Shown piece by piece: positions 19,482-44,997 of a stretch of 46,004 nt of DNA. Under the pieces are notes generated by a model. It was not told the DNA's origin, searched no databases, and saw nothing but the letters and a program-made list of their open reading frames with translations. The position numbers and the translations under genes were made by a program. Positions within the stretch are counted from its first letter, which is position 1, and the number at the start of each line of letters is the position of its first letter. Source of the DNA: a virus; the IMG/VR virus record IMGVR_UViG_3300010883_000068, positions 1 through 46,004 of that record. The stretch is one strand, 5' to 3'.

Positions 19482-20528
19482 ATGTCTAATATGTTTAATA
19501 CACATGGTGAACTAAATGCCTCTAATGTAAAAGAGGCGCTAACGCAGATTGTAAAATATGCTGCTGTAATTGAAGATTTAGGTTCTGCGAATGATTCCGC
19601 ATCCGCTGCTCCATCATTAACTGATGGTCAGAGAGATGAGATGATTAAGCAGGCTCTAATGACACAGGAAGGTAAGATTGCCCTCGGTCAGGCCATGGCT
19701 AACCCAATTCGTAAGAACTTGGATTACCAGGGTGTTGGTCGTAAGGCTCTAGTTGTCGATCCCCTTCCTCAGGGCGCTCTGCCCATCTATGACCGAGATA
19801 TTGATGTCGGCGCAGTTGTTGTTTCCAGCAACGGTTCCGCCCCAGAATCTCGTGTCTTTGGTGACCGCGTGACCGTTCCTGAGTTTGAGATTGTTTCCAA
19901 CCCAACCGTTCGTATTGCTGAAGTTAAGCGTCGTCGATTCAATGTCGTCGATCGTGCTCAGCAAAAGGCTAGGCAGGAAATTCAGGCTCAAGAGGATGCT
20001 AACGTCTTTGCCGCTCTAGATTTTGCTGGTGACAGCTCTTCTGGTGGTGGTACAAACGCCAAGCAGACCAACCTGGACAACTATAGCGCAGCAGCCACTG
20101 GACCTCACGGACCAGATGGTGAGCTTTCCAAGCATGGAATGCTTACGCTTAAGAGACTCATTGATCGTTGGGACTTAGTAACTTCTAAGTACTTCCTCAA
20201 CATTAATGAGTTTACCGACATTCTCAATTGGGAGTCTGCCGGTGCTGGTGGTCACTCTTCAGTAGACCCTGTAACTCAGAGAGAACTTCTTCAGACTGGT
20301 CTTTATGGTCACATCTTTGGCGCCGACATTGTCGTTTCCAAGGTTGTTCCTGCCGGACAAGCTTTTGCAGTTGCTGATCCTGAGTTCGTTGGTGTTATGC
20401 CCGTAAGGCAGGACATCGAGGTTCTTCCCGCTGATGAGCCCAAGCAGCTTAAGCTTGGTTGGGTTGTTAGTGAGATTGTTGGTATTGGTATTGTCAACAC
20501 CCGTGGTGTTGCTACAGGTACTGTGTAA
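19482..20528 (+). CDS. Major capsid protein
   Basis: This is the main shell subunit, expected to have the HK97 fold. Evidence is its position after decoration protein and scaffold/protease genes, a length of 348 residues, and a capsid-like core: GALPIYDRDIDVG near residue 98, FGDRVTVPEFEIVSNPTVRI at about 126-145 and a helical RAQQKARQEIQAQEDANVF segment around 159-177 corresponding to the spine helix. The N-terminal 60 residues, Ala/Ser-rich, may be removed on maturation. Codon use stands out: 12 of 17 arginines are CGN and C-ending codons are frequent. The ribosome binding site AGGAG plus an A-tract is identical over 16 bases to that of the gene at 45746. A strong terminator follows 27 bases after the stop. 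Confidence 0.9.
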   Translation: MSNMFNTHGELNASNVKEALTQIVKYAAVIEDLGSANDSASAAPSLTDGQRDEMIKQALMTQEGKIALGQAMANPIRKNLDYQGVGRKALVVDPLPQGALPIYDRDIDVGAVVVSSNGSAPESRVFGDRVTVPEFEIVSNPTVRIAEVKRRRFNVVDRAQQKARQEIQAQEDANVFAALDFAGDSSSGGGTNAKQTNLDNYSAAATGPHGPDGELSKHGMLTLKRLIDRWDLVTSKYFLNINEFTDILNWESAGAGGHSSVDPVTQRELLQTGLYGHIFGADIVVSKVVPAGQAFAVADPEFVGVMPVRQDIEVLPADEPKQLKLGWVVSEIVGIGIVNTRGVATGTV

Positions 20529-24357: not shown

Positions 24358-25272
24358 ATGTCTGCAACAAGAGATGGAGTGTATAGGGGTGGTGATATAA
24401 CCTTAAGTGTTCAGTACTATGGGCCAGACGGTCTGGCTAAAGATGCCGACAGTACACCTAAAGTACAAATAACAGATGTTGATGGCGATACATCTTTGAG
24501 CTCCACATCTAGCGGAGTAGTCAGGGTTTCGGAGGGTCTTTATAAATACACATATAGCATCGGAAAGACTGTAGACAAAGGGTTGTGGACAGATAAGTGG
24601 ACGGCTACAGTCGGTGGAGCTAGCCTGTCAAATGAGTTTAAATTTTTAGTTGCAGATACGTCGTCTGCAGCAACTACCGCAGGAAGCGTTAAGTTGGCGG
24701 ACGATGTCAGCTTTAATTTTTCAGATGAAGAGCTTGCTGGGGTAAATATTCTTATGAAGTATTTGAAAGCAAGATTAAGGTCAGATGGGAAAAAACCAAA
24801 AAGAGATGAGTATGGTTCTTTTATCACAGACGGTTATGGAGAATTGGTAATGGAAGATTGCAATGTATTTGGAAATGAGATACTTGCAAATTTTTTATGT
24901 ATGGGATTATCTGAATTTAACATGATTCCTCATTTTACAGCATATGGATTCTCTGATGATATTATAAAAACTACATTTTCTTCTGCAGTAGTTGAGGGTG
25001 CATATATATTCGCACTAGCGTCCCAATCACTTATAGAGAAAGGCAGAGATTTCACAATTAGCGATGGAGGGGTTTCTTATCAGCCACCAGCGCTTGGTGA
25101 CTTCTTAAGCTCCCACTTCGGAACATGGCTTACTAGTTATAGGGAAAGGTTGAAGTTTATAAAGATGAGCATACGTCCAGGTCCTGTTGGATTTGGAACA
25201 TATACCAATTTAACCAGTGGTGCGCCAGCATTCTTAAGGTTGAGGCACCTGAGAGCTAGAAGGATAATTTAA
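24358..25272 (+). CDS. Virion protein with N-terminal Ig-like domain (304 aa), possible neck/tail component
   Basis: Residues 1-100 look like an immunoglobulin-type beta sandwich (GLYKYTYSIGK, then GLWTDKWTATVGG). Residues 115-304 are mixed alpha/beta with a conserved-looking segment EKGRDFTISDGGVSYQPPAL followed by GDFLSSHFGTWLTSYRERLK, and a basic end (RHLRARRII). The C-terminal part resembles proteins of unknown function in large myovirus structural operons. AAAGGGGAT precedes the ATG. It is followed one base later by a membrane protein gene. A head-tail connector role is a guess from context. Confidence 0.6.
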   Translation: MSATRDGVYRGGDITLSVQYYGPDGLAKDADSTPKVQITDVDGDTSLSSTSSGVVRVSEGLYKYTYSIGKTVDKGLWTDKWTATVGGASLSNEFKFLVADTSSAATTAGSVKLADDVSFNFSDEELAGVNILMKYLKARLRSDGKKPKRDEYGSFITDGYGELVMEDCNVFGNEILANFLCMGLSEFNMIPHFTAYGFSDDIIKTTFSSAVVEGAYIFALASQSLIEKGRDFTISDGGVSYQPPALGDFLSSHFGTWLTSYRERLKFIKMSIRPGPVGFGTYTNLTSGAPAFLRLRHLRARRII

Positions 25273-25273: not shown

Positions 25274-25594
25274 ATGGAAGCACTTTTAGTTACGGCACTT
25301 CTTGAAAAAGGAGGGCTGTTTGGCATTGTTTCTGCATTTGCATTTTTTTGGATAATGTACAAAGATAAACAATTTATAATTAAATCAAACACACTTGAGG
25401 ACAAGCTTGCAAAACAAGCTGGGAGGATAAAAGAGTTGGAAATTGATAATCTTGAAAATATTAAAGAATTAAATAAAATAAACGAAGAAAGAATTAGTGA
25501 TTTGAAGCAGATTTTATCTGAACATAATAAAACCTTTAATGATACATCAATAGCTCTAGAGAAAATTCAGTTTTTTCTAGAAAATAATAAATAG
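25274..25594 (+). CDS. N-terminal membrane plus coiled-coil protein, holin/BhlA-like (106 aa)
   Basis: The first 12 residues (MEALLVTALLEK) are followed by one hydrophobic segment (13-30), a positive stretch YKDKQF and a charged coiled coil to the end (45-100). This architecture is seen in BhlA/UviB-type holin-like proteins and in inner-membrane spanins. It starts one base after the preceding stop. Lysis is a plausible role, but a membrane-anchored structural accessory is also possible. Confidence 0.55.
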   Translation: MEALLVTALLEKGGLFGIVSAFAFFWIMYKDKQFIIKSNTLEDKLAKQAGRIKELEIDNLENIKELNKINEERISDLKQILSEHNKTFNDTSIALEKIQFFLENNK

Positions 25595-25821: not shown

Positions 25822-26040
25822 ATGAAGAAGCCAGAAGAGTTAAGCCTGACATATTGTGGTTATAAAAAGCCATCGAATTTACATGAATATAAATTTGAAG
25901 TTTTGGGGCTAAAGAATTTGATAAAAAGAGCAGAAGAGAGAATGTCTGTGCTGGAGCAGAGCTCATATCTTGCAGAAGTTACAATTTCAGATAATAGCGG
26001 AATGGTTTATAAAGAGATTTTTGAAGATGAAAAAAATTAA
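25822..26040 (+). CDS. Small hypothetical protein (72 aa)
   Basis: A charged protein with a helix around residues 30-48 and an acidic C-terminus. TGGAGAG precedes the ATG. Its 3' end overlaps the following metallopeptidase gene by 14 bases, implying translational coupling. No family is recognised. Confidence 0.55.
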   Translation: MKKPEELSLTYCGYKKPSNLHEYKFEVLGLKNLIKRAEERMSVLEQSSYLAEVTISDNSGMVYKEIFEDEKN

Positions 26041-26527
26041 TAAAAATAAAATAGACTTAAAAAAAAATATAGAAACCATATCTAGATTAAGGTCTTCCCT
26101 GAAGAATAACGAAATTGCCAGGTCGATCTGCAAAGAAAACGAGTTTGAGTATTCTGCACTGGATGGGATACCCATATCCTTTAGTTCGGAAATTGATGTA
26201 AAGGCGAAAACAAAAAATGGTGAAATCTTCATAAATCAGGATCTTTCAGATGAGCCAATACATAGGCTAATGAGTTACCTAATACACGAAATAACTCATG
26301 TTTTCCAACATATCGAGAGAATCGGGAAAAAAGATCCATATAAAGGTAAAGAATACCTTGATAGACCGGATGAAATAGAGGCTTTTCAGAATCAGATAAA
26401 GCAAGACGCGGATACTAGGGCAGATTCAGAAGTAAGAGGGTATGTTGAAGATTTAGTAGAGTATCACGATGTTCCGAAGAGTGAAAAAGATAATAAAATA
26501 AAAGAGCTAACGGAACATATTAATTAA
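26027..26527 (+). CDS. Small HExxH zinc metallopeptidase-like protein (166 aa)
   Basis: I set the start at ATG 26027, overlapping the preceding gene by 14 bases; the frame extends upstream without a better start. H87-E88-x2-H91 (LIHEITHVFQH) is a zincin motif at the end of a hydrophobic helix, and PDEIEA at 114-119 supplies a likely glutamate third zinc ligand about 25 residues later, as in small gluzincins. The C-terminal third is highly charged. By family it would cleave peptide bonds with one Zn2+; the substrate is unknown. There is no signal peptide. Position among small late genes allows roles in virion maturation, host takeover or lysis. Confidence 0.7.
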   Translation: MKKINKNKIDLKKNIETISRLRSSLKNNEIARSICKENEFEYSALDGIPISFSSEIDVKAKTKNGEIFINQDLSDEPIHRLMSYLIHEITHVFQHIERIGKKDPYKGKEYLDRPDEIEAFQNQIKQDADTRADSEVRGYVEDLVEYHDVPKSEKDNKIKELTEHIN

Positions 26528-26566: not shown

Positions 26567-28558
26567 ATGTTATCTATTGCTGGCATGCTACCGTCAGAGG
26601 GTCAGAAGGATGTAAATCTAGACTCTACCATAGAGTTTACGATTGTAGATGACGGATCAACCATCGACCAAGCAACTCTAGTTGTTTATATAAATGGCAC
26701 CAAGGCAATAGACTCTGGAGCTTTCAAGTCTGACTATAATGGGCCAAAGTCCGAAATAGTTAAGAGTGGAGATAACTTAAATGCAATCATAGATCCAATA
26801 AGTAACTTTTCTGTGGGAAAAGTTATTTTGGTTAAGATTCAGGTTAAAAATTCAAGTGGGAAATATTTTAATTCATCTTATATATTTAAGACATCCCCAC
26901 TTGAGCCGATCCTAACTCTGAACTCTCCAGTACACCGTCAGGTATTAAAATCTGCTCAAGTTTTATTTCTGCAATTTGAAGATAAAATTGATGGAGTTGA
27001 ACAAAGCACTCTTACGGTTTATCTTAATGGATTGGTAATAATTTCAAGCGGAGTTTTTCAAACTGGATTTACTGGGGATTTATCAAAAATAATTGAAATT
27101 ACAAATGGTGTATCTGTAACTATTGATCCAAATGAACCGCTAAAGACCGGAAGTTATATTTTTAGGTATATTATTAGCGACAAAAGTGGCAATGAGCTTG
27201 ACGGTAAACTTAATTTTTCAGTTAAATTCACAGACCAGGTTTTGCCATCTACAATGATACAAACTGGATTTTACGGTTCATTTGGAATAGTTAAGGCATC
27301 AGATGTTGGGTGTGGAGATTCAATAAAATTAGAGTGGAACAAATTAAAGAAAAGGTATTACGGAAGTAACGTATACACTCTCATATATCAAAACAGCAGC
27401 AGGCTAGATATATTTGATAAGCAGCCAAAATATTTAGCAAAGGAATCTGCTAGTTCTTTTACAGCAAAAGGATTTGATGCTGGAAATAGAATGTTTTTCG
27501 CAGCAAGAGCTCTTGAGACTTATAATAATGTACTAGATACATCACAGATGGTAGGGGCGGCTACCGGGGTATATTACATACCGGACCCCGTATACTTATC
27601 CAAAAACTTACTTCAGGATGATCTGAGGGTATATGTAGACTCTGTTGCCGGATATCCAAGCTCTGGAAACCTGATAATAGGAAGAGAGGTCGTTAGGTAT
27701 TTATCCGTAGATGAAGAGAATTCTGCGTTTATGCTTCACTCTAGCGGAAGAGGGCTAAGCGACTCTACCGCCACAATACATATATCTGGAGATAAGGTCA
27801 GCCTGTTTGTGGAGTGTTCGGATAAAAATACCGTTATAGCGTCCGCTACCTCAACATATCATGATGGATATGGGCTAGAAAGGGAGGTGGGTGGCGTTGG
27901 AGTTGTTGTAAATGACTATACTGACAATGATAAGAAGTTTTTTCAAGGATTTGATTTTTGCGGATACCACAGGCCCCTACCTCAGCATATTCTTCAGGGT
28001 AAGGGCGATTGCGGCAGTTACCTGGGAGGGGAGTTTAACGGGCAAAGAGGTATGTTTCTCTACGACAGAATGCTGAACAGAGAGGAGGTCTTGCTAGATC
28101 AGAGCGGTGAGCCAATTATCTTGCTAAAAAGAGTGTGGGACGGCCAACAATGTGGATGTATGCATACAAACAGGCCTCACCCAAAAGTTAAGTCGTGCAA
28201 AGCATGTTATGGAACCGGATATGCTGGAGGCTATGCTCAACATCTGAACAAGAGAAGGGAGGACTATAAGCTGATGGTTAAATTTAAAGATACCCTAGAG
28301 GACTTAAAGTTATCTCCACACAGCCATCTTGAGCAGGTCTACGAACCACAGTGCTGGACCATAGCCATGCCAGCAATAAGGGATCGGGATATAGTAGTTA
28401 GGTTTGATTTTTCTGGCGATATAGAATATATGTATGAAGTTTTAAATGTAACAAAGGAGAAAATAATGTATACTCATTATGGAAGACAGAATCTTTCGTT
28501 AAAAAGAATGGATAAAACAGATATTCTATACACATTTCCTTTTGTTCTGTTTTCATAA
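26567..28558 (+). CDS. Ig-like domain tail/baseplate protein with C-terminal Cys cluster (663 aa)
   Basis: Two N-terminal Ig-like domains (about 1-108 and 113-228) are repeats of each other: both have a D(S/K) segment, then (Q/E)xxTLxVYxNG, then GxF(K/Q)(S/T) and a final IDP. A beta segment at 355-415 (SVAGYPSSGNLIIGREVVRY) follows. Near the C-terminus C529-x-C531 and C544-x2-C547-Y-G-T-G resemble half of a DnaJ-type zinc finger. The last 100 residues are alpha/beta. The start has TTGGAGTCATT, identical over 12 bases to the next gene's leader. Ig domains and size fit a virion surface or baseplate component; the precise role is inferred. Confidence 0.65.
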   Translation: MLSIAGMLPSEGQKDVNLDSTIEFTIVDDGSTIDQATLVVYINGTKAIDSGAFKSDYNGPKSEIVKSGDNLNAIIDPISNFSVGKVILVKIQVKNSSGKYFNSSYIFKTSPLEPILTLNSPVHRQVLKSAQVLFLQFEDKIDGVEQSTLTVYLNGLVIISSGVFQTGFTGDLSKIIEITNGVSVTIDPNEPLKTGSYIFRYIISDKSGNELDGKLNFSVKFTDQVLPSTMIQTGFYGSFGIVKASDVGCGDSIKLEWNKLKKRYYGSNVYTLIYQNSSRLDIFDKQPKYLAKESASSFTAKGFDAGNRMFFAARALETYNNVLDTSQMVGAATGVYYIPDPVYLSKNLLQDDLRVYVDSVAGYPSSGNLIIGREVVRYLSVDEENSAFMLHSSGRGLSDSTATIHISGDKVSLFVECSDKNTVIASATSTYHDGYGLEREVGGVGVVVNDYTDNDKKFFQGFDFCGYHRPLPQHILQGKGDCGSYLGGEFNGQRGMFLYDRMLNREEVLLDQSGEPIILLKRVWDGQQCGCMHTNRPHPKVKSCKACYGTGYAGGYAQHLNKRREDYKLMVKFKDTLEDLKLSPHSHLEQVYEPQCWTIAMPAIRDRDIVVRFDFSGDIEYMYEVLNVTKEKIMYTHYGRQNLSLKRMDKTDILYTFPFVLFS

Positions 28559-28573: not shown

Positions 28574-28831
28574 ATGCTTTGGATTAAAAATACAGATGCT
28601 AAAAGAGATGCGATGTTGACATTCGCATTAATTTCTTTTTTCATTGTTACGCTAAATTTATTTTTAGCTACATTTCAAAATATATCCGTGAATGGATATG
28701 AGTTTGGATTTTCATTTATGGATGCATCAACTATGACTGCATATTTAGCAGCAACGTTTGGTGCATATGTATCTAGAAGGTGGACTGATAGGAAGTATTC
28801 TTCTGATGAAAAGGAGGTAGATAGTGAGTGA
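28574..28831 (+). CDS. Two-membrane-segment holin-like protein (85 aa)
   Basis: Hydrophobic segments at 14-34 and 50-66, a short polar loop between them, and a charged C-terminal tail after RRWTDRKY. This is the layout of class II holins, and the gene opens a run of membrane and coiled-coil genes. AAAGGAG precedes the ATG. Its end carries the AAGGAGG ribosome binding site of the next gene, which overlaps it by eight bases. Holin activity is inferred from topology only. Confidence 0.55.
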   Translation: MLWIKNTDAKRDAMLTFALISFFIVTLNLFLATFQNISVNGYEFGFSFMDASTMTAYLAATFGAYVSRRWTDRKYSSDEKEVDSE

Positions 28832-29171
28832 TAATAGAAATATAATATATGATTTTTTTAAAAAAATTAGCCTAAAGACTAAGATCTTTGTTTCTATAAT
28901 TTTTTCTATTATAATGTTTTTCTTAATAATCATATTTAGAATAAAAATTTCTAATAGAAAAATGCTAGAGTATGAGTTATCAAAGATTAGGCATACTATT
29001 GAAATAGAAAGGTTGAAAGATGAGGAGTCTATAAATTTAGCAAAAATCAATCTACTGGAAAAAGAAGAGGCTGATATTTTGAATAAAATAAAAGAAATTG
29101 AAAGCATAGAAACCTCTGGTAATGTTACAAATGAGGAGCTAGATAAGTTTTTCGACGATAGGGGGTTTTAA
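28824..29171 (+). CDS. Membrane-anchored coiled-coil protein, inner-membrane-spanin-like (115 aa)
   Basis: GTG start at 28824, six bases after AAGGAGG. Residues 21-40 are a single hydrophobic segment with positive residues on both sides, and residues 45-95 are a charged coiled coil. This N-in, one-segment, coiled-coil layout is that of Rz-type inner-membrane spanins, but no sequence signature proves it. It overlaps both neighbours (eight bases before, one base after), as expected for a coupled cassette. Confidence 0.5.
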   Translation: MSDNRNIIYDFFKKISLKTKIFVSIIFSIIMFFLIIIFRIKISNRKMLEYELSKIRHTIEIERLKDEESINLAKINLLEKEEADILNKIKEIESIETSGNVTNEELDKFFDDRGF

Positions 29172-29404
29172 TGAAAGATAAAATAATTAAGCTTTATAAT
29201 TCAATAAAGGATAACAATCCTAATATTGCCAAGGAAATAATTTACAAATCAAGTAAGATATTAATTGATCTAGAGCCTTTTGTAAAAGAAATAAAAGGTG
29301 ATTTTATTTATATAAATAAGAGAGAGATAGAGTCCCTTATAGATTCTGGTATTAACTTTCCCACAGAGCAAATTGGAGATGTTGGATTTGAAAATGAAAT
29401 TTAA
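29171..29404 (+). CDS. Small hypothetical protein (77 aa)
   Basis: The start overlaps the previous stop by one base (TAATG) and the end overlaps the next gene by 11 bases. A charged helical N-terminal half is followed by a short strand region (IKGDFIYINKREIESL). It has no membrane segment and no recognised family. Its position inside the membrane-protein cassette is the only hint to function. Confidence 0.55.
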   Translation: MKDKIIKLYNSIKDNNPNIAKEIIYKSSKILIDLEPFVKEIKGDFIYINKREIESLIDSGINFPTEQIGDVGFENEI

Positions 29405-29843
29405 TAAAAAGATTATTATTTCGATATTTATTTTGATATTATTTTTCTTTCCCAGAATCACTAATGCTGGAGATATAAAGGAAGCCGGAACGGTTCTGGA
29501 GAAAGACTCTTATGTGTTCAGCATAGATGAGGCTACTGCACTTTTAAATAGGGTTGAGGAGCTTGAGAAAAAGGAGCTTCTTCTTAGTGAGTATATTGAG
29601 TTAAATCTAGTTCAGTCTAGACAAATTGATCTATATAAGGTAAATTATGACATACTAGACCAGCAAAGAATGCAGTATATGCAACTTGTGGATCTAAACG
29701 AAAACCTTCTTGCCAGAACGAGGCAGCAGAACAACTTAAGTGAGCTTAAAAATTGGGGTATTTTTTCTATTGGTGTTGTAGTAACTATTGGGGCATTTTT
29801 AGCCGCAGATAGAATTGGGGACACTATGGAGACTACTTACTAA
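29394..29843 (+). CDS. Exported protein with signal peptide and C-terminal membrane segment (149 aa)
   Basis: ATG 29394 is chosen because it gives a textbook signal peptide: basic NKK, a hydrophobic core at 7-19, and a probable cleavage after TNA (residue 25). There is no lipobox Cys. The mature part is a charged coiled coil (about 45-110), then a hydrophobic segment at about 122-139 (IFSIGVVVTIGAFLAAD) and a short tail. An exported domain anchored by a C-terminal membrane segment resembles the plan of unimolecular spanins but lacks the lipoprotein end. It overlaps the upstream gene and is followed by the giant spike gene. Confidence 0.6.
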   Translation: MKFNKKIIISIFILILFFFPRITNAGDIKEAGTVLEKDSYVFSIDEATALLNRVEELEKKELLLSEYIELNLVQSRQIDLYKVNYDILDQQRMQYMQLVDLNENLLARTRQQNNLSELKNWGIFSIGVVVTIGAFLAADRIGDTMETTY

Positions 29844-29888: not shown

Positions 29889-32800
29889 ATGGCTAAATCA
29901 AAATATCCTGAAAAAATAGATACATCTGTTGAGCTCCCACATGTGAGGGACAACATTTTAGAGATTGGTTCTGATGTAATTAATAGCATAAGAACCGCTA
30001 TATTTCAAATTGAAAAAACACTTGGGGTTAATCCTCAGGGTTCGGTTGGTAACAGCGTATCTTCGAGGATATCAAGAGCGCTAGACTCTCGTGGTAATCT
30101 AAAAAAAGAGGCATTGGACAGGGCTAACATATTATCCGGCCCAATCATTGACGCAGATGTATCTAAGGTTGCTGCAATACAGGAATCTAAGCTCAGGCTG
30201 GACTTTCCAACTCAGCTTTTGCAAGATGAGGTATCTATCTTAAATAGGCAGATAGGGTCTATAATTGCGAAAGTTGATGAGCTAAATTATATCTTATCCA
30301 CTCATGTTAGCATTGAGGCGACAAACAGACACAAGGCTAAGGCTATAACCGTAGAGGCAATCGGGTCCTCTGGAAGCTCAACTTCTACAAACTCAGTGGA
30401 GGAGTCAACGCTTCAATCGGTGCTGGATGATATATACAGTTCGCATATAAATTATGATGGAATAGGCATATCTGAAGAAAACAGCTCTCATGAAGCAAAT
30501 CAGGTGTTTTTTGATAGCACAAACATAACTCAGGTAACTAGCGAGGATGATGTTCAGGGTGCGATAGAGGATATAGCTTTAGCGTCATTTTTTCAAGCTG
30601 TAGAACATCAGGATTTATTTCATACCAATGGCGCTCTGAACAATTGTGTGATAACGAGAGACTCATCATCAGATTTTGGGGTTGAAATATCTGAGGAAAC
30701 ATCGGTTTCCTTCTCAATGCCATCCTCTACTGACTCATCAAAGGTTTCTGATGTAACCTTTGGAAGTCCAATAAGTATAAGTGGAGTGGAAGCCTCTAAG
30801 TCAGATATACTTACTTTGGGTGACGGCATTACTTCGTCCAACTATGAGATTGAGAGCTTCACCCTATCCTCTGATTTGTCATCGATAGAGAGTGTTAGCA
30901 TATTCGGCTCATTTGCCGAAGACTCATCATCGGAGTCTGTAGGCTCTATGAGTAGGAATACGAAGACTAGTGGGAATATAACTTCACTGCTATCCACAGC
31001 AAGGGAGGTCCCAGACCTTACATCTTCATCCTATTTGGTTCAAATATGTAATCCGAACTCTTCGGCTATAATCACTAATGAGATAAGGCCAGCTGCGCTG
31101 AACGCGCTGAGCAGCGTGGAGATATCCGTTGATGGTGGAGATTCGGTATCATTAGATGTGTATAACTCTAGTTTTGAACAACAAAGCCTGGACACTATTG
31201 TATATAAAATAAACGAGCAAATTGCTGAAAATTCTTATAACTTTTCAGCTTACAGGTTGGATAAAGACAATGGAGGGTCTGAGCTTGTCATTGCACATAA
31301 TCTTCCATCTTCTAAGGATTTTGATTACACACTTGAAGTAACTGGCGGCTCGCTCGACGGAATGGGGCTTTCTAGTGACTCTGGAGTTGTTAAGGCTACT
31401 TATGGAAATAAATATTTTATTCAAGGTTACCCATATCAGGGCTTGAGTCAGAAGATTGATGTTTATGGTTCAGACATGTCCTTCTCCTCCGGAACAAACT
31501 ATATAACATCAATAGGTGGAGATTTAGACTTTAAGGAGAACAAAATATACTCCGGAGACTTGATCACAATAATAAATTCTGATGATGATAGTGGAACATA
31601 TGTTATATCAAGTGTAAGCTCAGAGCAGATTGTCTTGGCAGAGCCGGTCTCATCAGTAGGCTTCTCTGGTTCATCAACAGACGAAACAAGGTTTTTGATT
31701 TATAGAAACTCCGTTTCTCTTTCGTCTATGGAATTTGACGAAATTGACTCATCTACATCAGGAATGGTGCTTGATATATTCTTAGATTCTAACCAAGAAG
31801 TGTATTTGGATAAAAGGATTGAGTATGTATCTCATGTAAATACAAAATATCAGTCATTGGTAACTATTGTTGATTTTAGTGGGGATGATTCTAGCATAGA
31901 GTTATCTATGGTCGCTTCAATCAATTCGTCTGGAAGCGTCCAGATCATATTAGATGGCGGAGATCCTATAGTTCTAGCCTCTGACAGAGTGTACCAGAGT
32001 ATAAGATCTGGAAAACACAACATATCATTAAAATTACTTATAGATAGGGTTAGTGATATACTGTCCGAAATATCAGCTAGCTCTACTTCGCAACTTGAAT
32101 TTTCAGTATATGTCTACCCTCCTGTAAATAAAGACACTAATCTTCATATATCCAGAGTTAGTTATGACAACTTTAGAGGTGAGATAACCGGTGGGGGTTC
32201 TAGATCATACTCTAATGATAAGCAGACTAGGCGGATCATAAGAACTCTAGTTAGCGGAATTACCGGAATTGACGATATAGCATCAAGCGTAAAAGAAGAG
32301 TTGGTGTATAATAGGTTTTCCGAAACAAGAAGTGATGGCGTTGTCTTTGGCCTTGAGATATCCAATGTTACGTTAGATATGTCTACTGCATCAGAAATAT
32401 ATGAGTTTGACATATCGGCTGGCGCGGCATATGTTTCTGGAAAGAGATTTGAAGTACCGCTAATAGAAGGATTTTTATCCGGGATACCAAGTGCTGGCGG
32501 CGACTCTGTTGATAATTTTTATATAGCGTTAGACGAATATGGAAATATAGTCGCATTACCGGCTGCTGGCAGTAGCGGTTCAAGCCCCTGTTCTAGTCCG
32601 TTTGGAGCTAGCGGATTTGCAATTCTAGGCTCTGTGGAAAAATCTGGAGGTGTTGTTACAGGATATGACCTAAGACTCCTTATAAGCGATCTGGATAGCA
32701 AGGTTTTAAACGCAATTTCAGTCAGCCCCCTACCAGGAATGGGGCACTTTAGAGATATATCAAAAGCTATTAAGTATGCAAAAAGATTTTCTGATATATA

Positions 32801-35402
32801 TCCAGGAGCTGGAGTCCCAACGATACGTTTGAAGTCAGGTGTACACACTATTGTTTATGACGTTGGAGTCATGTTTGCAGACACATCTAAGCAGCAGGTA
32901 TTTGATAAAGCATATGAAAGCGGAGCATGGATAAACTTTCCGGTTAATATAGTAGGAGAGGGTGACTCTACTGTATTGGACATAATGAGAACATATGTCG
33001 ATTATCCGGCGACCAGTGATGACAGGAAAGGTGCCGGTGCTATAAAGAACGATGGCTACATACACATAGCCGGCCCAGGCCTATCTGCCACTACGCCTAC
33101 AGCTGATGTAAATACCCTTTCCAATGGAAAGGTTTTGTTAAAAGATTTTTCAATGCGACTGTCTGGAATTAGGATTTTAGACCCAATGATTAGCGATGGC
33201 GATGGAGTCTCTTATAATAGCCATGTAGTGATTGACAATGTAAAGTTTGACTTTTCGGAAAAAACTGATTTTGGAAAGCATAACATGGGAATAGTTGTAG
33301 CCAATGTTGATTCAGATGAGGATGATCGAGTTGGTAATATAACTATACAAAATTGTAAATTTATAAACAGCCTTACTCGTCTTAAAAAGTGGGAAGCAAA
33401 TAAGTGGTATTATTTTAAATACAATAATAACTTTTTAGACACTCTTGGTGACGAGCAGGCTTATCCCATATATCAAGATACGCAGGAGGGTGATGATTAT
33501 GACCACATTATGCAGGCAGATCGTTATCATTATACCAGCTCTGTTACATCAACTGGTATAAGTGGACAAGGGAGAAATGGAAGGTATTCTGAAAGTCAGT
33601 TTATTACTGCAATTGGAAATGTCGTATCTGGAGATTCTGGCCCATACTGGGATCCGAAAAACAAAGTAGGATTCGGAACAGTTATTGCAGAGGCAAATAC
33701 CTATATTGACAACTTAGAGGTTCCATACTGGCTAGAAACAAAGGGTTCGGTCTCATTTTCTGATAATACTGATGGTGATGAAACGTTTAGTAGTTGGCTT
33801 GACTCTACGTTTTATGGCGATGTTAAAGCGTACGGTGACACTATCATAGGCAACTCGGAATCTGATAGTCTAACGGTAATTGCAAAAACTTTCTTTAACA
33901 CAAAATCTACAAAAGGAATTGGAATCGGAGTAGAAGATTTCCTTCCCCATGCTGATGGTGGCTCCGTTGTTCATATTCATGAAGACACATCCAATAGAGC
34001 TTATGTTAGATTTACAAATACTACTACTGGAAAAACAGCGGCTGACGACGAGACGGCGGCTGGGGTCGGCGGGCCTGGAGTTCTAATAGGGATGAACGCC
34101 GGTGAGGATGCCTTCCTTGGGAACCTCTCAAGGGGCAAAGACATCCGCCTTCAGACTACAGATGATGATGGTAATTCCAAATCAAAGTTTAGAGTAGGCG
34201 GAAAAGGCTGGACTTCAATGCGTTCCGGCGGGGTTGACGGTGATAAAGGCTTCACTTATTCTTCTTTGGGTGATGAAGCAGCAGTGCCTCTTGACGTAAG
34301 GGGTTGCAGAAGTGGCGGTTATATTGCTTCAATTTTTAATTCTGCAGAGGAATTCAATGACGCGGATCTTGGAGTATATGAAGGAAGCGTGTTATTGCTC
34401 GGAGTTAATGGATACAGGCCAAGCTATAAATCAAATTGGATAAGGTTTACCGCGCAAGATGGCAAAAATAACCCAAGTATCGAGAGGGCCGATACCGTTG
34501 GAGGTGTAAGGGGAACCCTTGGAACAGTAGGGAATGATGGCGTAGATATAAAAGCAGCGTTTTTTAACTTCTGTCATACAGAACAAGTTCCAGTGGGTAA
34601 TACGCCTGTCGACGGGTCGGGGTCTCCTCTGGGTCCAGTATTTAAACACCTAGCCAGGGTTAAAGGCACACTTGGTGGAATGGTTGATTATGTATATACA
34701 ACTGCCCCGGCAATCGATACCCCTAGGTGGAGGGCGACCGGTGATGACGATTCAGATACCGGAGAAACCCTGTCTGATCGCACCAAATGGCTAAATCCAA
34801 CCACCAGGCCACACCCTATGATTATTCTCGGTGGGAATAGTGCTAATGATTATAACAATGGACACTCTCATTACTACTCAAAGGCATACGGAGGAAGGGG
34901 TGTTCAGTACTATACTGGAGCCCAGGATTTCGGAGAGTGGTTAAAAATAGGTGATATAAATGAGTGGCCAGAAATCCTAGAGAAGGAGCTAGAGAAGGAC
35001 GATGACGACTCAGATATTGTAATTATAAATAGAGAGATATTTGGATTAGAGGAGGGGATGGTTGTGTATATAAGAGAGGCTATAATATACAGAAGTGGAC
35101 CTGGAACCCCGATGGTTATAACAAATAGAGCGGCACTAGTTGGCAACGCTTCATGGAAAGATGATGGATATTCCGGAGAGGTCGTCTCTTTTGTAGGGCA
35201 GGTTCCCGTTGTCGTAAGGGGTGGATCTAAAGATGGAGATTATTTAATTCCAGAGGAAAATCACTGCATCCCTATAAGTAGGGATGATATTACATTTGAG
35301 CAATATAGGAGAGTTATCGGAACTGCATGGCGAACTGTTAATATTCCAGAAGAAGATGACGGAGAGTTCGTAAAAGTATTGTGCGCAATAGGTATTAAAT
35401 AA
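29889..35402 (+). CDS. Giant tailspike/fibre protein 1 (1,837 aa)
   Basis: Residues 1-160 (…YPEKIDTSVELPHVRDNILE…) are a helical anchoring region nearly identical to that of the next gene. Ser-rich beta domains fill 160-950, including a small domain at about 550-590 (GDLITIINSDDDSGTYVISS). From about 950 the sequence has a parallel beta-helix pattern like pectate-lyase-fold spikes (VPTIRLKSGVHTI, VNIVGEGDSTVLDI, GNITIQNCKFIN). Residues about 1350-1500 resemble fibre stalk modules (VRFTNTTTGK). The C-terminal 130 residues include VSFVGQVPVVVRGGSKDGDY, like C-terminal trimerisation or self-cleaving chaperone domains of fibres. Such proteins bind and sometimes cut host surface glycans. It overlaps the next start by one base. 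Confidence 0.75.
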   Translation: MAKSKYPEKIDTSVELPHVRDNILEIGSDVINSIRTAIFQIEKTLGVNPQGSVGNSVSSRISRALDSRGNLKKEALDRANILSGPIIDADVSKVAAIQESKLRLDFPTQLLQDEVSILNRQIGSIIAKVDELNYILSTHVSIEATNRHKAKAITVEAIGSSGSSTSTNSVEESTLQSVLDDIYSSHINYDGIGISEENSSHEANQVFFDSTNITQVTSEDDVQGAIEDIALASFFQAVEHQDLFHTNGALNNCVITRDSSSDFGVEISEETSVSFSMPSSTDSSKVSDVTFGSPISISGVEASKSDILTLGDGITSSNYEIESFTLSSDLSSIESVSIFGSFAEDSSSESVGSMSRNTKTSGNITSLLSTAREVPDLTSSSYLVQICNPNSSAIITNEIRPAALNALSSVEISVDGGDSVSLDVYNSSFEQQSLDTIVYKINEQIAENSYNFSAYRLDKDNGGSELVIAHNLPSSKDFDYTLEVTGGSLDGMGLSSDSGVVKATYGNKYFIQGYPYQGLSQKIDVYGSDMSFSSGTNYITSIGGDLDFKENKIYSGDLITIINSDDDSGTYVISSVSSEQIVLAEPVSSVGFSGSSTDETRFLIYRNSVSLSSMEFDEIDSSTSGMVLDIFLDSNQEVYLDKRIEYVSHVNTKYQSLVTIVDFSGDDSSIELSMVASINSSGSVQIILDGGDPIVLASDRVYQSIRSGKHNISLKLLIDRVSDILSEISASSTSQLEFSVYVYPPVNKDTNLHISRVSYDNFRGEITGGGSRSYSNDKQTRRIIRTLVSGITGIDDIASSVKEELVYNRFSETRSDGVVFGLEISNVTLDMSTASEIYEFDISAGAAYVSGKRFEVPLIEGFLSGIPSAGGDSVDNFYIALDEYGNIVALPAAGSSGSSPCSSPFGASGFAILGSVEKSGGVVTGYDLRLLISDLDSKVLNAISVSPLPGMGHFRDISKAIKYAKRFSDIYPGAGVPTIRLKSGVHTIVYDVGVMFADTSKQQVFDKAYESGAWINFPVNIVGEGDSTVLDIMRTYVDYPATSDDRKGAGAIKNDGYIHIAGPGLSATTPTADVNTLSNGKVLLKDFSMRLSGIRILDPMISDGDGVSYNSHVVIDNVKFDFSEKTDFGKHNMGIVVANVDSDEDDRVGNITIQNCKFINSLTRLKKWEANKWYYFKYNNNFLDTLGDEQAYPIYQDTQEGDDYDHIMQADRYHYTSSVTSTGISGQGRNGRYSESQFITAIGNVVSGDSGPYWDPKNKVGFGTVIAEANTYIDNLEVPYWLETKGSVSFSDNTDGDETFSSWLDSTFYGDVKAYGDTIIGNSESDSLTVIAKTFFNTKSTKGIGIGVEDFLPHADGGSVVHIHEDTSNRAYVRFTNTTTGKTAADDETAAGVGGPGVLIGMNAGEDAFLGNLSRGKDIRLQTTDDDGNSKSKFRVGGKGWTSMRSGGVDGDKGFTYSSLGDEAAVPLDVRGCRSGGYIASIFNSAEEFNDADLGVYEGSVLLLGVNGYRPSYKSNWIRFTAQDGKNNPSIERADTVGGVRGTLGTVGNDGVDIKAAFFNFCHTEQVPVGNTPVDGSGSPLGPVFKHLARVKGTLGGMVDYVYTTAPAIDTPRWRATGDDDSDTGETLSDRTKWLNPTTRPHPMIILGGNSANDYNNGHSHYYSKAYGGRGVQYYTGAQDFGEWLKIGDINEWPEILEKELEKDDDDSDIVIINREIFGLEEGMVVYIREAIIYRSGPGTPMVITNRAALVGNASWKDDGYSGEVVSFVGQVPVVVRGGSKDGDYLIPEENHCIPISRDDITFEQYRRVIGTAWRTVNIPEEDDGEFVKVLCAIGIK

Positions 35403-38400
35403 TGTCGAAATCAAAATATCCAGACAAATTAGATACATCTGCAGAAATACAGCATGTAAGAGACAATATAACCGAAATAGGCTCTGATGTTGTAAACAGC
35501 ATAAGGTCAGCCATATTTCAAATTGAAAAGACCCTCGGGACCAACCCTCAGGGGTCAATTGGAAATACCGTGTCTAATCGTCTAAATAGAGTTTTGGACG
35601 ATAGAGGTAATATTAAAAAAGAGGCATTGGACAGGGCCAACATATTGTCTGGCCCCATTATTGATGTTGATGTATCTAAGGTTGCTGCGATACAGGAGTC
35701 TAAGCTCAGGCTGGACTTCCCGACTCAGCTTTTGCAAGATGAAGTATCTATTTTAAATAGACAGATAGAATCTATAATTGCAAAAGTTGATGAACTAAAC
35801 TATATCTTATCCACTCATGTTAATCCAGAGGCGACAAACAGACACAAGGCTAAGGCTATAACCGTAGAGGAGGCTACCGATTTTTCATCAAGCTCCTCTG
35901 CCACAACTTCATTTACAGAACAAGACCTTCAAAGCTTTATTAACAGCTTGTATTCTTCTCATATAAACTATACAGGGGAGTCGATATCTTCTATAAATAG
36001 ATCTCATGAGGCCAATCAGGTATTCTTTGATAATACAAATGTTTCAGATATAATAAAGAAAGAGAGTGTTCAGGGCGCTATAGAGGATATGGCAGATCTC
36101 GAAGGGGTCGCCCTTAGGGATAATACGCTTAACCTAAACTCTAATGGAATCATAAGGTCTGGTTCGGTAATAGACGGCTATGAAAATCTAGGTGTGGGAT
36201 CAGAGATAATCTCATCATCTGAAGTTAATTACGAGGCTATTACTGGAAAGTCGACTACAAGATTTTATTTTACAGACAACCCAACACCAATAGAGTCTAT
36301 TAGTGAATTTGATTTACTCATACTTTCTGGTTCAACTACTGATGAGAACAATATATCATATTCAATAAAAAGCTTTTCACTTAATGGTAGCGGTGAGCTT
36401 GTATATGTGGACGTATATGGATCTCCAGTCTCTGAAAGTGAGGCGGGAATATTTGGCTCAATATCTAAAAGAATATACAGATCATATAATTCAAATGGCT
36501 TGAACTGCACCGTTAGATATAGAAGGAATAAGACAAACACTCCAGATGTTCAGGTTTCAAGCCCAGATTCTGCTACGATAATAACAAGGGGTGTTAACCC
36601 ATCTGCACTTACGGAAGATTCTGGCTCGTTTAATATATCAATAGACAGTGAAGAAGAGGTACAAATAGAGGTATATGACTCTAATTATAGCTCTCAATCC
36701 TTAGATACTATAGTGTCTAAAATAAATAAATTTTCTATAGAAAATCATTTAAATATAATGGCATATAAGATAAAAATGTCAAGATGTTATGAGCTTGCAA
36801 TATCTCATAATATGCCGAATAATTCTTCTGATATAATAAACAGAACTCTTAAAATAAGTAGCGGCACGTCTAATGATGGGACAGCAGAGCTTGGAATGCT
36901 TAGCGTTCTAGACAAAGAATTTGAGGGAACTACCGGAAATGCATATCATATAAACGGATTGCTCATATCTAGTTTTGGAAAGATAAAGTCATATAGCTCT
37001 TCTGAGGTCCAAATCTCTGCAGATTTAACTATAAGCTCAACTAGTGGCGTTGACTTTATTACAAGTAATATTAGAACTGGAGATTTGGTAATAATAACAA
37101 AATCCACTGATCCGTCAGATGATGGAACATACAGAATACTAGAGGCTACCCAGTCGGTAATAACTCTCGATTTTGATGGAGGATCCTTCTCCGGAGAGTT
37201 AGATGGTAACTCTATTGTCCATGTAATAAGATGCTGTGCGTCAATTAGCGAATTAGAGTTTAATGAACTTGGCCCGATATCATCTGGGCCGACCCCAACG
37301 GTCGGCAGCGTATTGTTTGACGTATTTATAGATGAAAATAATGATATAATGTTCAGAAGAAGGCTTGAGCAGTCCGGGATTCTTGCGGACTCTGGTTTTA
37401 GGGCGATTATTGTTGATGTTTCTAAGAACTTTATAGTATCCGATGAAGTTGCCACCATCTCTGTGAGTAGCTCTAATGTCGCAACCCTGTCTGGACCTGG
37501 GTTTGTATCTTCTGGCCCTCCAGTTCAGGTAGGCGCAGATGGTCTATACAAAGTATTCGCATCCGATAGAATGTCATATATAGTGTTACAGGTTGAGCAC
37601 TCCTCTCCCCCAACGTCTACTATATTTACAGAAATCTATGGTTTTAACGAGTCATCATATAGCGGAATAACGTTATCAAGGGGGGCATTCGCAACATCAA
37701 TAGGGAGAGTTATATCTACCTCAACAGTATCTGCAGAGAATAAAAATGGAGTTCCTGTTGTTTTGGACAAGAGAACTACTGGAACCATAGACCATACTAT
37801 TATCAGTGAAACATTCTTGGAAAGATATATACAGGGCCCTAGAAATGAGCTTAGGGGCTCTGGAATAATAAGAGGCTGCAATGTGAGCGGCGTATTAATA
37901 GATAGTGATGCCATAGGCAATGTTGCAAAATTTACGGTATCGGCGGGTATTGCGATAGTAAACGGAATAAGGTATGAGTTTGAAGGCGTAGAAGATTATA
38001 TTCAAAGAGTCGCCGGAGGAACCTTTTATGTTGCAATGGACTCAGATGGATGCATAATAACGGGATACGAATCTAGCTCAATATCTCCATTTTCAGATAT
38101 GAATGTTGCACATTTAGCAAGAGTAAAAGTAGATACACTTGGGTCTGTTCCAAGCATAATAACGATATATGATTTAAGACTTTTTATAGATAATATTGAC
38201 TATAAAATTATTTCAGACATAACAGTTTCAAACGATACAAGATTTAGTCACTTTGTAGATATAAAAAGCGCCGTTAGATATGCGATGATGTTTGATAAAA
38301 TGTTTTCCAGTTTTAACGCAACACCATCTATACTCATAAAAGAAGGCACTTATTATATAGATGAGCCAATAATGATACATAAAGATATATCTATAAGCGG

Positions 38401-39616
38401 GGTTGGTCCGTCAACTATAATAAAGAGAAGTGCTTCTTTTCGATCATTATGTTCACTCTCAAGCGTTAGCGATTATATACCTAATGCATATAAATCATTA
38501 TTTATAATAGGGCAGTCAGAAGATATAGAGTTAGGCACCTATTCCACTTTAGATTCAAGTAAGATAATTAATGGAGTTACGCTTAAGGACTTTGTGTATG
38601 ATTGTGGAGGGTCTGTTAGCGGGGTTGCTTCTGTAGTTTCAATTGCACAAAAAGAAGTCGGGACAGAACGGTTTATTTTTAAAAACATAAGTTTCATTGG
38701 ACCAGAGAATGCTCAAAATGACTCAGTCGGATCAGCATGTGACTTTGAATATATGGTCACCCTCATGAGACAACCGTCCACAACTGATGATTCAAAAATG
38801 TTCTCTGACGATGATGTAAAGAATTCAGACGGGAGCAGGAGAATATTTAGAGGCTTGGAGGTGAGTAATTGTAGGTTCAAAAGAATGGGCTGTGGAGCGT
38901 CAATAATATGTGTAGGGGGACTTTTAACATACTCTACAATTAGCAATAATATTATAACGGATCTTCCTATAATAACTGGAGACTTAGAAATTCCAACTGA
39001 TAAATCCTTATCCATTCCCGTCGAGTCATTTGAGCACTGGAGCCGGCCCGGAATCCCTAACTTCAGAACAGATAATTACCCCAGAGACTGGTTCTTCGGA
39101 ATGATAAGTGCAGGGCATGGGTGGAGGGCAGATACAGAGGATGGTAATAAGTATAGAGTATCGCTCGGAGTTGGATGTTCCGAAACATCAAACACTATAG
39201 TCGTTGGAGAGGCCGTTGACAATGTTACAGCCGAACATATTAGCGATACCGTAATATGCTCAGAGTTATTCAGACAAGGCATGATGAATGAGTCAATATA
39301 CGAGGCAGATAAACTTTTTGGCAGAATTATGGAGAAGTCCAACAAGGAAGCATTGCATGGTTATAGAATGTGGGCAACTCCAATAGTATCCGTAATGAAA
39401 AAATCAAAGGTATTTACAAACATTGTTTCATGGATAGCAATACCATGGGCTTATCAAATGGCATATGAAGTTGGAGCAACAGATAAAGGCAATCGATTAG
39501 GAAAATTACTAATGGTATTAGGAATTCCAATGTCAAAAGTCGTATATAAATTAAGCTTAGTAAAGAAAAAATTATTTAAAAAAAGAATTCCATTTAAAGA
39601 TGTTCAGAATTTTTAA
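35402..39616 (+). CDS. Giant tailspike/fibre protein 2, paralogue with a different C-terminus (1,404 aa)
   Basis: Starts in the TAATG overlap with spike 1. Residues 1-165 closely match spike 1 and similarity continues at lower level to about residue 1,200. Shared features include QSLDTIV(S/Y)KIN, the small domain near 557 (GDLVIITKSTDPSDDGTYRI), and YDLRL followed by a beta-helix start at about 950 (PSILIKEGTYYI, ISISGVGPSTII). The final 110 residues (MNESIYEADKLFGRIMEK onward) are helical, Trp-containing and basic, ending KKKLFKKRIPFKDV, and do not look like a spike tip. It has no fibre-type chaperone end like spike 1. It may be a second receptor-binding protein or a structural adaptor for spike 1. 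Confidence 0.72.
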   Translation: MSKSKYPDKLDTSAEIQHVRDNITEIGSDVVNSIRSAIFQIEKTLGTNPQGSIGNTVSNRLNRVLDDRGNIKKEALDRANILSGPIIDVDVSKVAAIQESKLRLDFPTQLLQDEVSILNRQIESIIAKVDELNYILSTHVNPEATNRHKAKAITVEEATDFSSSSSATTSFTEQDLQSFINSLYSSHINYTGESISSINRSHEANQVFFDNTNVSDIIKKESVQGAIEDMADLEGVALRDNTLNLNSNGIIRSGSVIDGYENLGVGSEIISSSEVNYEAITGKSTTRFYFTDNPTPIESISEFDLLILSGSTTDENNISYSIKSFSLNGSGELVYVDVYGSPVSESEAGIFGSISKRIYRSYNSNGLNCTVRYRRNKTNTPDVQVSSPDSATIITRGVNPSALTEDSGSFNISIDSEEEVQIEVYDSNYSSQSLDTIVSKINKFSIENHLNIMAYKIKMSRCYELAISHNMPNNSSDIINRTLKISSGTSNDGTAELGMLSVLDKEFEGTTGNAYHINGLLISSFGKIKSYSSSEVQISADLTISSTSGVDFITSNIRTGDLVIITKSTDPSDDGTYRILEATQSVITLDFDGGSFSGELDGNSIVHVIRCCASISELEFNELGPISSGPTPTVGSVLFDVFIDENNDIMFRRRLEQSGILADSGFRAIIVDVSKNFIVSDEVATISVSSSNVATLSGPGFVSSGPPVQVGADGLYKVFASDRMSYIVLQVEHSSPPTSTIFTEIYGFNESSYSGITLSRGAFATSIGRVISTSTVSAENKNGVPVVLDKRTTGTIDHTIISETFLERYIQGPRNELRGSGIIRGCNVSGVLIDSDAIGNVAKFTVSAGIAIVNGIRYEFEGVEDYIQRVAGGTFYVAMDSDGCIITGYESSSISPFSDMNVAHLARVKVDTLGSVPSIITIYDLRLFIDNIDYKIISDITVSNDTRFSHFVDIKSAVRYAMMFDKMFSSFNATPSILIKEGTYYIDEPIMIHKDISISGVGPSTIIKRSASFRSLCSLSSVSDYIPNAYKSLFIIGQSEDIELGTYSTLDSSKIINGVTLKDFVYDCGGSVSGVASVVSIAQKEVGTERFIFKNISFIGPENAQNDSVGSACDFEYMVTLMRQPSTTDDSKMFSDDDVKNSDGSRRIFRGLEVSNCRFKRMGCGASIICVGGLLTYSTISNNIITDLPIITGDLEIPTDKSLSIPVESFEHWSRPGIPNFRTDNYPRDWFFGMISAGHGWRADTEDGNKYRVSLGVGCSETSNTIVVGEAVDNVTAEHISDTVICSELFRQGMMNESIYEADKLFGRIMEKSNKEALHGYRMWATPIVSVMKKSKVFTNIVSWIAIPWAYQMAYEVGATDKGNRLGKLLMVLGIPMSKVVYKLSLVKKKLFKKRIPFKDVQNF

Positions 39617-44400: not shown

Positions 44401-44997
44401 TACATAAGCAAGAGATGTGTATATTTCTATCCAGACTCTATCGTTAGAAACATTAACGGTACAAATACAAACATTGATGGGTTTTATATAGCGGCAGCAG
44501 CTGGAGGTTGGCTATCCGGAACACAAAATGTTGCAATACCTCTAACAAGAAAGGTTCTTACCGGATTTGCACTACTTAGAGATAAGGTGTATAGGCAGAT
44601 TAGGCTAAATTCTCTTGGAAATGTTGGAGCCACAGTTCTACAGCCGGTAACTGGCGGTGGAAGAGTGCTGGCCGGAAGAACAACTAGTAATACCGGATAT
44701 GTTGAAGATGAGGAAATTTCAGTAGTTTTCATTAGAGATAGAGTTAAGCAGGTTCTTAGAGATAGTTTGGATGGGTATATAGGGACTGTTGAAAATGAAA
44801 ACACACAAGGAGTTATAGGCTCTAGGGTTATATCAATTATGTCAGCGTTAGTTAGCCAAGGTCTTGTTACGAATTTTGAAAACATTAAAGTTTCAAGGGA
44901 TAAGGTAGATCCAAGGCAGTGGAACGTTTTCTTAAGGTTCCAGCCTGCATTCCCAATAAACTACATATTCATAGACATAGAGGTTGGAGTCCTCTAA
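41467..44997 (+). CDS. Tail sheath protein, unusually large (1,176 aa)
   Basis: This is the contractile sheath that drives the tube through the host envelope. The N-terminus ISGYVQPGVFARDRVI, and the C-terminal domain from about residue 880 with DGFYIAAAAGGWLSGTQNVA, GFALLRDKVYRQIRL, TGYVEDEEISVVFIRDRV and a final INYIFIDIEVGVL, are characteristic of myovirus sheaths. Family members are commonly 350-700 residues; the extra length is a long beta-rich insertion at about 60-560. It contains a small domain (DVGKTLIISSGVNEGRYTI, about 395-415) like those in the two spikes. CGGAGGG precedes the ATG. The tube gene follows after 15 bases. Confidence 0.92.
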   Translation: MANIPGISGYVQPGVFARDRVISRGVSIPGGLRIVCVLGEGLKEETVVSSAFGSGKDGNITYSPTGTGDGRFFKIANAPVESGRTELRLNQSLLYGTEATVDSTTGKWGASGFDSKYDYRLDVSKGAIEMQKAALADLDGKLYSASSGNTGNGVVAHQGTTWGVDSTNLINILDTNAIAENWTAKCVGTVRDSAGNVVSGQSTFTVRGEVTGVVRDANGVPYTWSSNTGSQTGADGAMSGTKDPVADGYLVATNFMAGIGMTSGAVTETSAGSAAKTATSAVGTTTDTIYIAAFDLVKHGQALAGDYIWFNEFSATDYGGYSNPAKIKSITFDSDNDRSVITTEEGALAETQADLIWFIHATNLFIQGDNNGDLHHLTGGSIEVATAPTNSFTSADVGKTLIISSGVNEGRYTITAVTSSRRCRVQKYGDSSSGFPVGLESIYNGMTSAGARYHSDSTASLSDGLRDSSGAYLGMGVSAATILFNSAGAGTHVEMGLSQVSVTYYLLDTNGVLEFAVKEGATPFEVGDFFTLRVQSRVLRNGDELEARYIATEDLNDPEFFTSTSELFKKHGTPSATNTLALGAQMAFENGAPGILALQCKPAISRRTAETLLEAVDSNGDGGIQVSVGTNAERDDLYFPIPRPNSGLGLGKPDTDTEVNIFVVRSGVETQIFPNKYGFYNTQLASGIVNETNTSQVNWISDSDNAYSYTIVSTGVQILGTGFKGVLTGSSTASVANETSTFSTTEFNFDSSHVGDIIVLQSIEVEDTSDGEGTKYTTESAIQTQTGLDDHEMTIHSVLDDNTVVVYGHGTGTADVLTSSFVDVKWFLKNEADTTNTGAALLLHKDLATSGTIKEGDGIRISYIDQKDADLFDTNWFNAFEKLEAQDCQIVVPLPTQNRSKIFRAAVTHCEQMSTIANRKERVALIGAQQGVTVAALLGESEIAVEDIGIIEGIQGDTAAEILAGNVEDLVNFKLSDNYISKRCVYFYPDSIVRNINGTNTNIDGFYIAAAAGGWLSGTQNVAIPLTRKVLTGFALLRDKVYRQIRLNSLGNVGATVLQPVTGGGRVLAGRTTSNTGYVEDEEISVVFIRDRVKQVLRDSLDGYIGTVENENTQGVIGSRVISIMSALVSQGLVTNFENIKVSRDKVDPRQWNVFLRFQPAFPINYIFIDIEVGVL

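Follow-up and report, generated by a model that had tools for sequence, protein, structure and literature searches.

The window, a 46,004-nucleotide stretch of viral DNA (IMG/VR record IMGVR_UViG_3300010883_000068), contains matches to a terminase, a portal, a head maturation protease, a major head protein and a tail sheath. Along 87% of its length, the major head protein shares 47.5% identity with the counterpart in Bacillus phage G, a phage of 497 kb. Between the genes for the major head protein (19482–20528) and the tail sheath (41467–44997) lies a small gene encoding a zinc metallopeptidase-like protein, here called MP, flanked on the same strand by a short overlapping gene and by the gene for a large virion-type protein, c2 (Table 1). 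The first-pass annotation had placed MP in a 'tail/lysis interval'. This description is only partly right, given the position between the head and sheath genes: when 26 of the 37 window genes were compared with the PHROGs (a set that leaves out 28824–29171), no lysis family was matched apart from a non-significant hit of MP itself to an 'amidase' family (E 0.028).

Table 1. Features of the MP locus, with their positions in the window and the basis of each assignment.
Feature	Position	Strand	Basis
c3, conserved 304-aa protein of the upstream virion region; weak similarity of its C-terminal part to gp165 of Bacillus phage G (E 0.009)	24358..25272	+	
c10, small protein with a single hydrophobic segment and, by eye, a likely coiled coil; found in some loci between c3 and MP	25274..25594	+	
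70-aa small protein; by eye like another small protein upstream of MP in L148, L180 and L181	25598..25810	+	
Conserved small protein (72 aa) whose gene shares 14 nt with the start of MP; putative MP partner	25822..26040	+	Homologues beside MP in 29/38 loci
MP, zinc metallopeptidase-like protein, 166 aa	26027..26527	+	ORF; 38 distinct family members; model pLDDT 91.7
HEITH active-site motif, H87-E88-I89-T90-H91, in helix 78–97	26285..26299	+	H87, E88 and H91 invariant (34/34); helix from model
E116, probably the third ligand of the metal, within the first turns of helix 114–130	26372..26374	+	Invariant (34/34)
c2, 663-aa virion-type protein with Ig-like domains and a C-terminal CxC/CxxC and beta module; constant neighbour of MP	26567..28558	+	

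The MP family and its putative active site

The MP reading frame starts with an ATG and carries HEITH at residues 87–91 and PDEIEA at residues 114–119. The highest 19-residue Kyte–Doolittle mean is 0.44, too low for a signal peptide or a transmembrane helix, so that the earlier description of both motifs in a 166-residue protein lacking a signal peptide is confirmed. Translated in all six frames, the window contains just two HExxH motifs, one in MP and one in a frame riddled with stops, and HEITH is therefore more than a chance occurrence. Judged from its sequence, MP is a soluble, putative zinc protease that is probably active.

A search with the single MP sequence retrieved just one contig, carrying an identical copy. 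The family was opened by two motif scans and a six-member alignment (A1), whose profile detected the family at 33 loci of viral contigs; at 26 of these the match extends over about 120 residues or more. We distinguish 38 MP loci, 22 from the MP search, which serve to test the linkage to c2, and 16 from a search with c2. The 38 members (some near-identical, such as L140 and L141) all belong to uncultivated phages, and some of the contigs exceed 200 kb (nine of the 46 loci with a long c2 match). A second alignment of 21 rows (A2) comprises 20 relatives that are 30–46% identical to the window MP. Among the 25 closest pairs, the 15 with a computable dS gave dN/dS values of 0.07–0.20, and although these ratios are rough because dS exceeds 1, the comparison points clearly to purifying selection.

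Three members queried against a phage collection of 50,697 records found no relative: the window MP had nothing at E 0.1 and, at E ≤ 10, four weak matches, each with a coverage below 80%; a second member had none at E 1; and a third matched only tape-measure-type genes at E 0.8, in three records of one cyanophage. When whole records were searched, MP was present in all five MP-bearing records, with one match each, and in none of five records with a match to only the C-terminal part of c2. Three of four large phage records gave no match and the fourth (LR745208) an unconvincing one at E 0.05. No publication pointing to the family was found in the open-licence library searched; neither PMC12619734 nor PMC9723584 contains the term 'metallo', and a table in the former has a 'putative peptidase' group. 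Phage zincins proposed for virion maturation are already known, and the MP family with its gene cassette looks new.

The third metal ligand was assigned on members recruited through c2 rather than through a motif (44 loci, reduced to 34 unique proteins), because the motif-based viral scans (71 and 52 stretches) select both glutamates of ExEA. The residues that never vary in these 34 proteins include H87, E88, H91, Q94, Y110, E116, A119, F120, Q123, Y139, L143 and H147. HExxH is hence conserved throughout, as membership of the zincin-like metallopeptidase superfamily requires. Residue 118 is a glutamate in 27, an aspartate in four, an alanine in two and a glutamine in one, and since E116 is retained in 34 of 34 compared with 27 of 34 for E118, E116 is the likely third ligand. 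In the model it lies in the helix that follows the active-site helix (helix 114–130); in gluzincins (HExxH...E) a glutamate of the corresponding helix is the third ligand, a role that E116 may have in MP. SprT proteins typically have a third histidine at the place of E116. The three-ligand zinc site suggested by the first-pass annotation is strongly supported by these invariant residues together with the model described below; of the two PDEIEA glutamates, the ligand is probably the first and not the second.

Predicted fold and relation to known peptidases

The AlphaFold2 model built from alignment A2 is confident (pLDDT 91.7, pTM 0.87). Helices 11–26 and 29–37 and a short helix 42–47 precede three strands (50–53, 60–63 and 66–70), which are followed by the HExxH helix (78–97), the helix bearing E116 (114–130) and two further helices (133–146 and 151–161). 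The core of zincin-like MPTases has been described as an N-terminal helix, a three-stranded sheet, the HExxH helix and a helix with the glutamate (PMC5512222), and the model agrees with this description as far as the order of elements alone is concerned. The elements of the MP model thus follow one another as in a minimal zincin, probably of the gluzincin type (HExxH...E).

Comparison with experimental structures gave similarities that all stay below the guide value for noise. Foldseek found no PDB match at E ≤ 0.001. In the VIA structural alignment, zincins make up most of the leading rows (aminopeptidases, selecase, BlaR1, Wss1 and IrrE), all of them under the Z of 8 taken as the noise guide: selecase (4qhh) superposes with Z 6.8 and an r.m.s.d. 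of 2.8 Å over 78 residues, BlaR1 has Z 6.5, 4jiu Z 5.3 and IrrE (3dte) Z 5.2 over 87 residues with an r.m.s.d. of 3.9 Å. The top row is 8s5f, the HExxH domain of the alpha-ketoglutarate dependent oxygenase ChlB (Z 7.7, 147 residues, r.m.s.d. 5.0 Å). A library of viral structures also yielded weak matches, none at E 0.001, several of them to phage proteins named metallopeptidase, SprT-like or IrrE-like. Two PDB sequence matches were set aside: a weak one to 9g58, which is listed as a putative ATP-dependent zinc protease domain protein (E 0.017 for the whole sequence and 1.1 for the best stretch, with HExxH unaligned), and one to a designed helical protein.

At the profile level MP resembles small zincins of archaea and phages with the pattern HExxHxxQ...Y(I/L)xRPxEIEA. 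Profile–profile comparison of MP gave a probability of 98.0% with eight of ten proteins from archaeal MAGs and 97.9% with 11 small phage proteins (eight from the motif scans and three from weak matches of the A1 profile search), against 0.1% and 0.3% for the negative controls c2 and c3; each figure refers to a comparison with one profile rather than to a database search. These proteins share the strands, the HExxH helix and the EIEA helix with MP, whereas only 73–81 columns align and the lineage-specific N- and C-terminal helices of MP fall outside the match. Ten archaeal MAG contigs matched the MP profile, nine over about 40 core residues and one over residues 85–166. In these contigs (L161–L170, from MAGs titled Thaumarchaeota, Bathyarchaeota and other archaea) the protein is a small standalone zincin, with HEL(V/T)HxxQ...YIDRPTE(I/V)EA in the eight that were read.

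In Peptidase M78/IrrE N-terminal-like proteins (PF06114), HExxH is followed by a glutamate in the second helix, as in MP, and IrrE 3dte aligns with the model; one of 21 members matches this family at E ≤ 0.1 (L138, E 0.017), below the cut-off (15.3 versus 22 bits). The IrrE alignments end with model residue 127 on chain residue 124 in 3dte and with model residue 128 on chain residue 125 in 3dti. A gapless extension of these ends would put E113, which we take to be the metal ligand of IrrE, at model residue 116. The minigluzincins abylysin, jannalysin and selecase resemble MP in their minimal size and element order (Z 5.3–6.8, below the noise guide), while MP differs in its extra C-terminal helices, and no minigluzincin is among the PDB sequence matches of MP or its profile. 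The strand and HExxH core of the SprT-like family (PF10263) and of the eCIS core family (PF13699) was matched at E ≤ 0.1 in 11 and 10 of 21 members, respectively; for SprT-like, the score of MP is 16.5 against a cut-off of 25.6 bits and the best E among the 21 members is 0.0052. Wherever bit scores are given, all Pfam matches of MP (SprT-like, eCIS core, M90, DUF6782 and M78) lie below the curated cut-offs. YgjP-like (PF01863) is matched by seven of 21 members, with 15.3 versus 26 bits for L151 and a best E of 2.1e-05 in one member, and not by the window MP at E ≤ 1. We did not name the family after it, as that E of 2.1e-05 comes without a bit score or alignment. Matches to Phage_TAC_16 and DUF826 were dropped as chance, and NCBIfam and PADLOC gave no match to MP.

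Genes linked to MP

The c2 gene lies 3′ of MP on the same strand in all 38 distinct loci, with at most 76 bp between the profile matches in 37 of them and 546 bp in one. The converse search with c2 returned 63 loci, 46 with long matches and 17 matching in the C-terminal module only. Two of the 46 start at a contig edge, and MP is present in each of the other 44. In the C-terminal-only loci it is present in 0/17 within the DNA examined; there, every significant match to the c2 profile starts at position 453 or later, some of the proteins have a different long N-terminal part (L220, 704 aa) and some loci are near-duplicates. Upstream, a match to c3 was found in 33 of the 38 MP loci within the DNA examined, and the order c3 ... 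MP, c2 ... long protein recurs. Four of the 17 C-terminal-only loci have a recognisable c3, and because c3 directly precedes the c2-like gene in two of them (L228 and L232), MP may be located at an older c3–c2 junction. In a Mantel test on distances over 29 of the 38 loci, the correlation was 0.76 for MP and c2, 0.56 for MP and c3 and 0.70 for c2 and c3, differences to be read as nominal. In six loci (L132, L133, L135, L138, L145 and L147), two minus-strand genes of about 360 aa (cluster c9) stand in tandem upstream of c3, within the plus-strand virion block.

The model of c2 has a pLDDT of 74.7, with much of the conserved Cys-rich part at low confidence. Its beta-rich N-terminal domains resemble Ig-like folds, one of them with a Z of 10.7 across 96 residues. 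PHROG matches were to virion structural proteins in ten of 16 members and to a baseplate wedge subunit in eight of 16, and may stem mostly from generic Ig-like domains. In phage Tunturi_5 a c2-like stretch (60 profile positions, E 1.2e-10) occurs in gp322, annotated as a minor tail protein four genes before the sheath and followed by gp324, a tail terminator, and gp326, the tail sheath. A neck or tail role of c2 is plausible. A domain-level search ruled out that the c2 proteins of L149, L152 and L153 share the N-terminal Ig domain only: their N-terminal, middle and C-terminal parts are all present and the second Ig domain is missing. The c2 gene of L149 has, downstream of 8400, an in-frame stop at the position of a glycine in its relatives and is otherwise open, which could reflect a sequencing error, inactivation or recoding.

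The reading frame in which the start of MP is buried turned out to be a conserved gene itself, a point that the first-pass annotation overlooked. Homologues of this 72-aa protein adjoin MP in 29 of 38 loci (28 by BLAST, and L149 by profile search), one lies about 0.9 kb upstream of MP in L152 and the protein is absent from the remaining eight loci within the DNA examined. Its consensus, read by eye, is near MREPEnC..YCGf..P....e..fEilGL..LIkrAeeRI..L.Qs.fL. It had one chance-level match (E 8) in the phage collection and none at E 10 in the 17 C-terminal-only loci and the examined stretches of phage G and Tunturi_5. The buried start had been read as a sign of tight stoichiometry. The overlap itself is real, 14 nt with the ORF at 25822–26040, and would support at most translational coupling, as only part of the loci share it: the MP start overlaps the upstream ORF by 1–53 nt in at least 13 of 21 loci, a lower bound that leaves overlaps above 60 nt uncounted and for which the starts used in L149 and L151 are not start codons, and the others have gaps of about 2–213 nt. 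Counted on the homologues themselves, the overlap is found in 23 of the 28 BLAST loci, with approximate starts that from L172 on are those of the profile match.

Possible roles of MP

Proteolysis in the assembly of tailed phages is best known from the head. The arrangement described above suggests that MP could act elsewhere in the particle. H87, H91 and E116 would be the zinc ligands, and E88 the residue that activates the water molecule. Expressed from the virion gene block, MP would serve specifically in assembling the neck or tail of the particle, and its target, or at least its binding partner, would most likely be c2, perhaps the N-terminal Ig-bearing part, because MP is found only with N-terminally extended c2. 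It would cut or remodel c2, helped or restrained by the overlapping 72-aa protein, which is probably its adaptor, chaperone or inhibitor. That MP is an active zincin dedicated to virion (neck or tail) assembly, most likely processing c2 with the small protein as a partner, is a reading to which we give even chances. Several considerations temper it, among them the structural matches, which all stay under Z 8. The linkage between MP and c2 reflects shared function or shared inheritance and does not identify a substrate, and MP and the extended c2 may both simply characterise a single lineage, as the outcome of one evolutionary event. Moreover, relatives without MP presumably assemble their virions without it.

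Small gluzincins had been described as not standard among tail-module enzymes; a precedent does exist. Group 1 jumbo phages have a conserved uncharacterised zincin-like metallopeptidase (AMR59696.1) proposed for virion maturation (PMC7824862). By description, it resembles MP as an uncharacterised zincin found throughout a lineage of jumbo phages; the MP profile had no match in the phiKZ record, in a search run without a positive control. The same work argues that jumbo-phage peptidases tied to a virion type act in maturation and patchily distributed ones on the host (PMC7824862), and by analogy the distribution of MP corresponds to the virion-type-tied pattern.

Between the two targets first proposed for MP, virion proteins and a host or defence protein, the former is favoured since the gene is locked to a virion-type gene. 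A virion-carried or late-expressed MP whose cleavage target, following entry or in the course of infection, is a host or defence protein is unlikely in our view, and is the strongest rival to a role in assembly. For zincin-like MPTases within phage polyvalent proteins, delivery and, in some cases, an action on proteins of the host have been proposed (PMC5512222), and the SprT-like and ArdC-like zincins of jumbo phages have been argued to be host-directed on account of their limited, variable distribution (PMC7824862). The distribution of MP, however, is not patchy within its lineage, in which it stands beside c2 in 38 of 38 loci and gives one match in each of five MP-bearing records. The same fixed position, together with the small size and the conserved C-terminal helices with the invariant Y139, L143 and H147 outside the catalytic core, would also suit a structural or chaperone protein with a peptidase fold that mainly binds, as a zinc-holding assembly factor or a component of the virion, and in which catalysis is secondary or has disappeared. 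The general base E88 and the likely ligands, with which a pure scaffold could dispense, are invariant in 34 of 34 proteins, and we rate this alternative as quite improbable.

The remaining alternatives concern the type of reaction. We would be surprised if MP were a lysis or cell-wall enzyme that attacks the peptides of peptidoglycan: small proteins with hydrophobic segments are encoded downstream (28574–29843) and there is the weak 'amidase' match, but MP lacks a signal peptide, that match is non-significant and the other 25 window proteins scanned against the PHROGs matched no lysis family. A non-proteolytic metal enzyme on a zincin fold, for example an oxygenase like the HExxH domain of ChlB, is suggested by the top structural row, 8s5f, with its Z of 7.7 over 147 residues. 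The r.m.s.d. of 5.0 Å, the presence of ordinary aminopeptidases within one Z unit and the difference in length (166 residues for MP versus 335) make this very improbable.

If the assembly reading is correct, MP would be a second lineage-wide peptidase fixed to a tail- or neck-type gene with a small partner, pointing to regulated maturation of another part of large virions, and three unannotated genes in dozens of uncultivated phage loci would gain a testable function. What is new here is the fixed MP–c2 linkage, a gene for a small partner and the probable assignment of E116 as a ligand. More tentatively, MP could be a maturation protease that jumbo phages devote to a neck or tail protein, separate from their prohead protease. 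It would then share a fixed cassette of three genes with its substrate, the Ig-bearing c2, and with a small regulator, encoded in an overlapping gene, which would hold the enzyme inactive, or target it, up to the time of assembly; this fuller scheme is possible, if doubtful.

The block downstream of c2 has further features. Four small genes (c5, c11, c12 and c4; 28574–29843) recur 3′ of c2, some with hydrophobic segments and likely coiled coils, and are holin/spanin-like by eye. The first stretch, 28574–28831, has a weak match to DUF4212 (E 0.00019, 22.2 versus 30 bits). We rejected the genes with hydrophobic segments as a lysis cassette, no lysis family being matched among those scanned (28824–29171 left out). 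Two consecutive very long proteins follow (29889–35402 and 35402–39616; 1837 and 1404 aa); they begin with nearly the same 120 residues and are apparently duplicated virion proteins. The tail sheath protein (1176 aa) matches the sheath profile only over residues 999–1172 and carries a large N-terminal addition.
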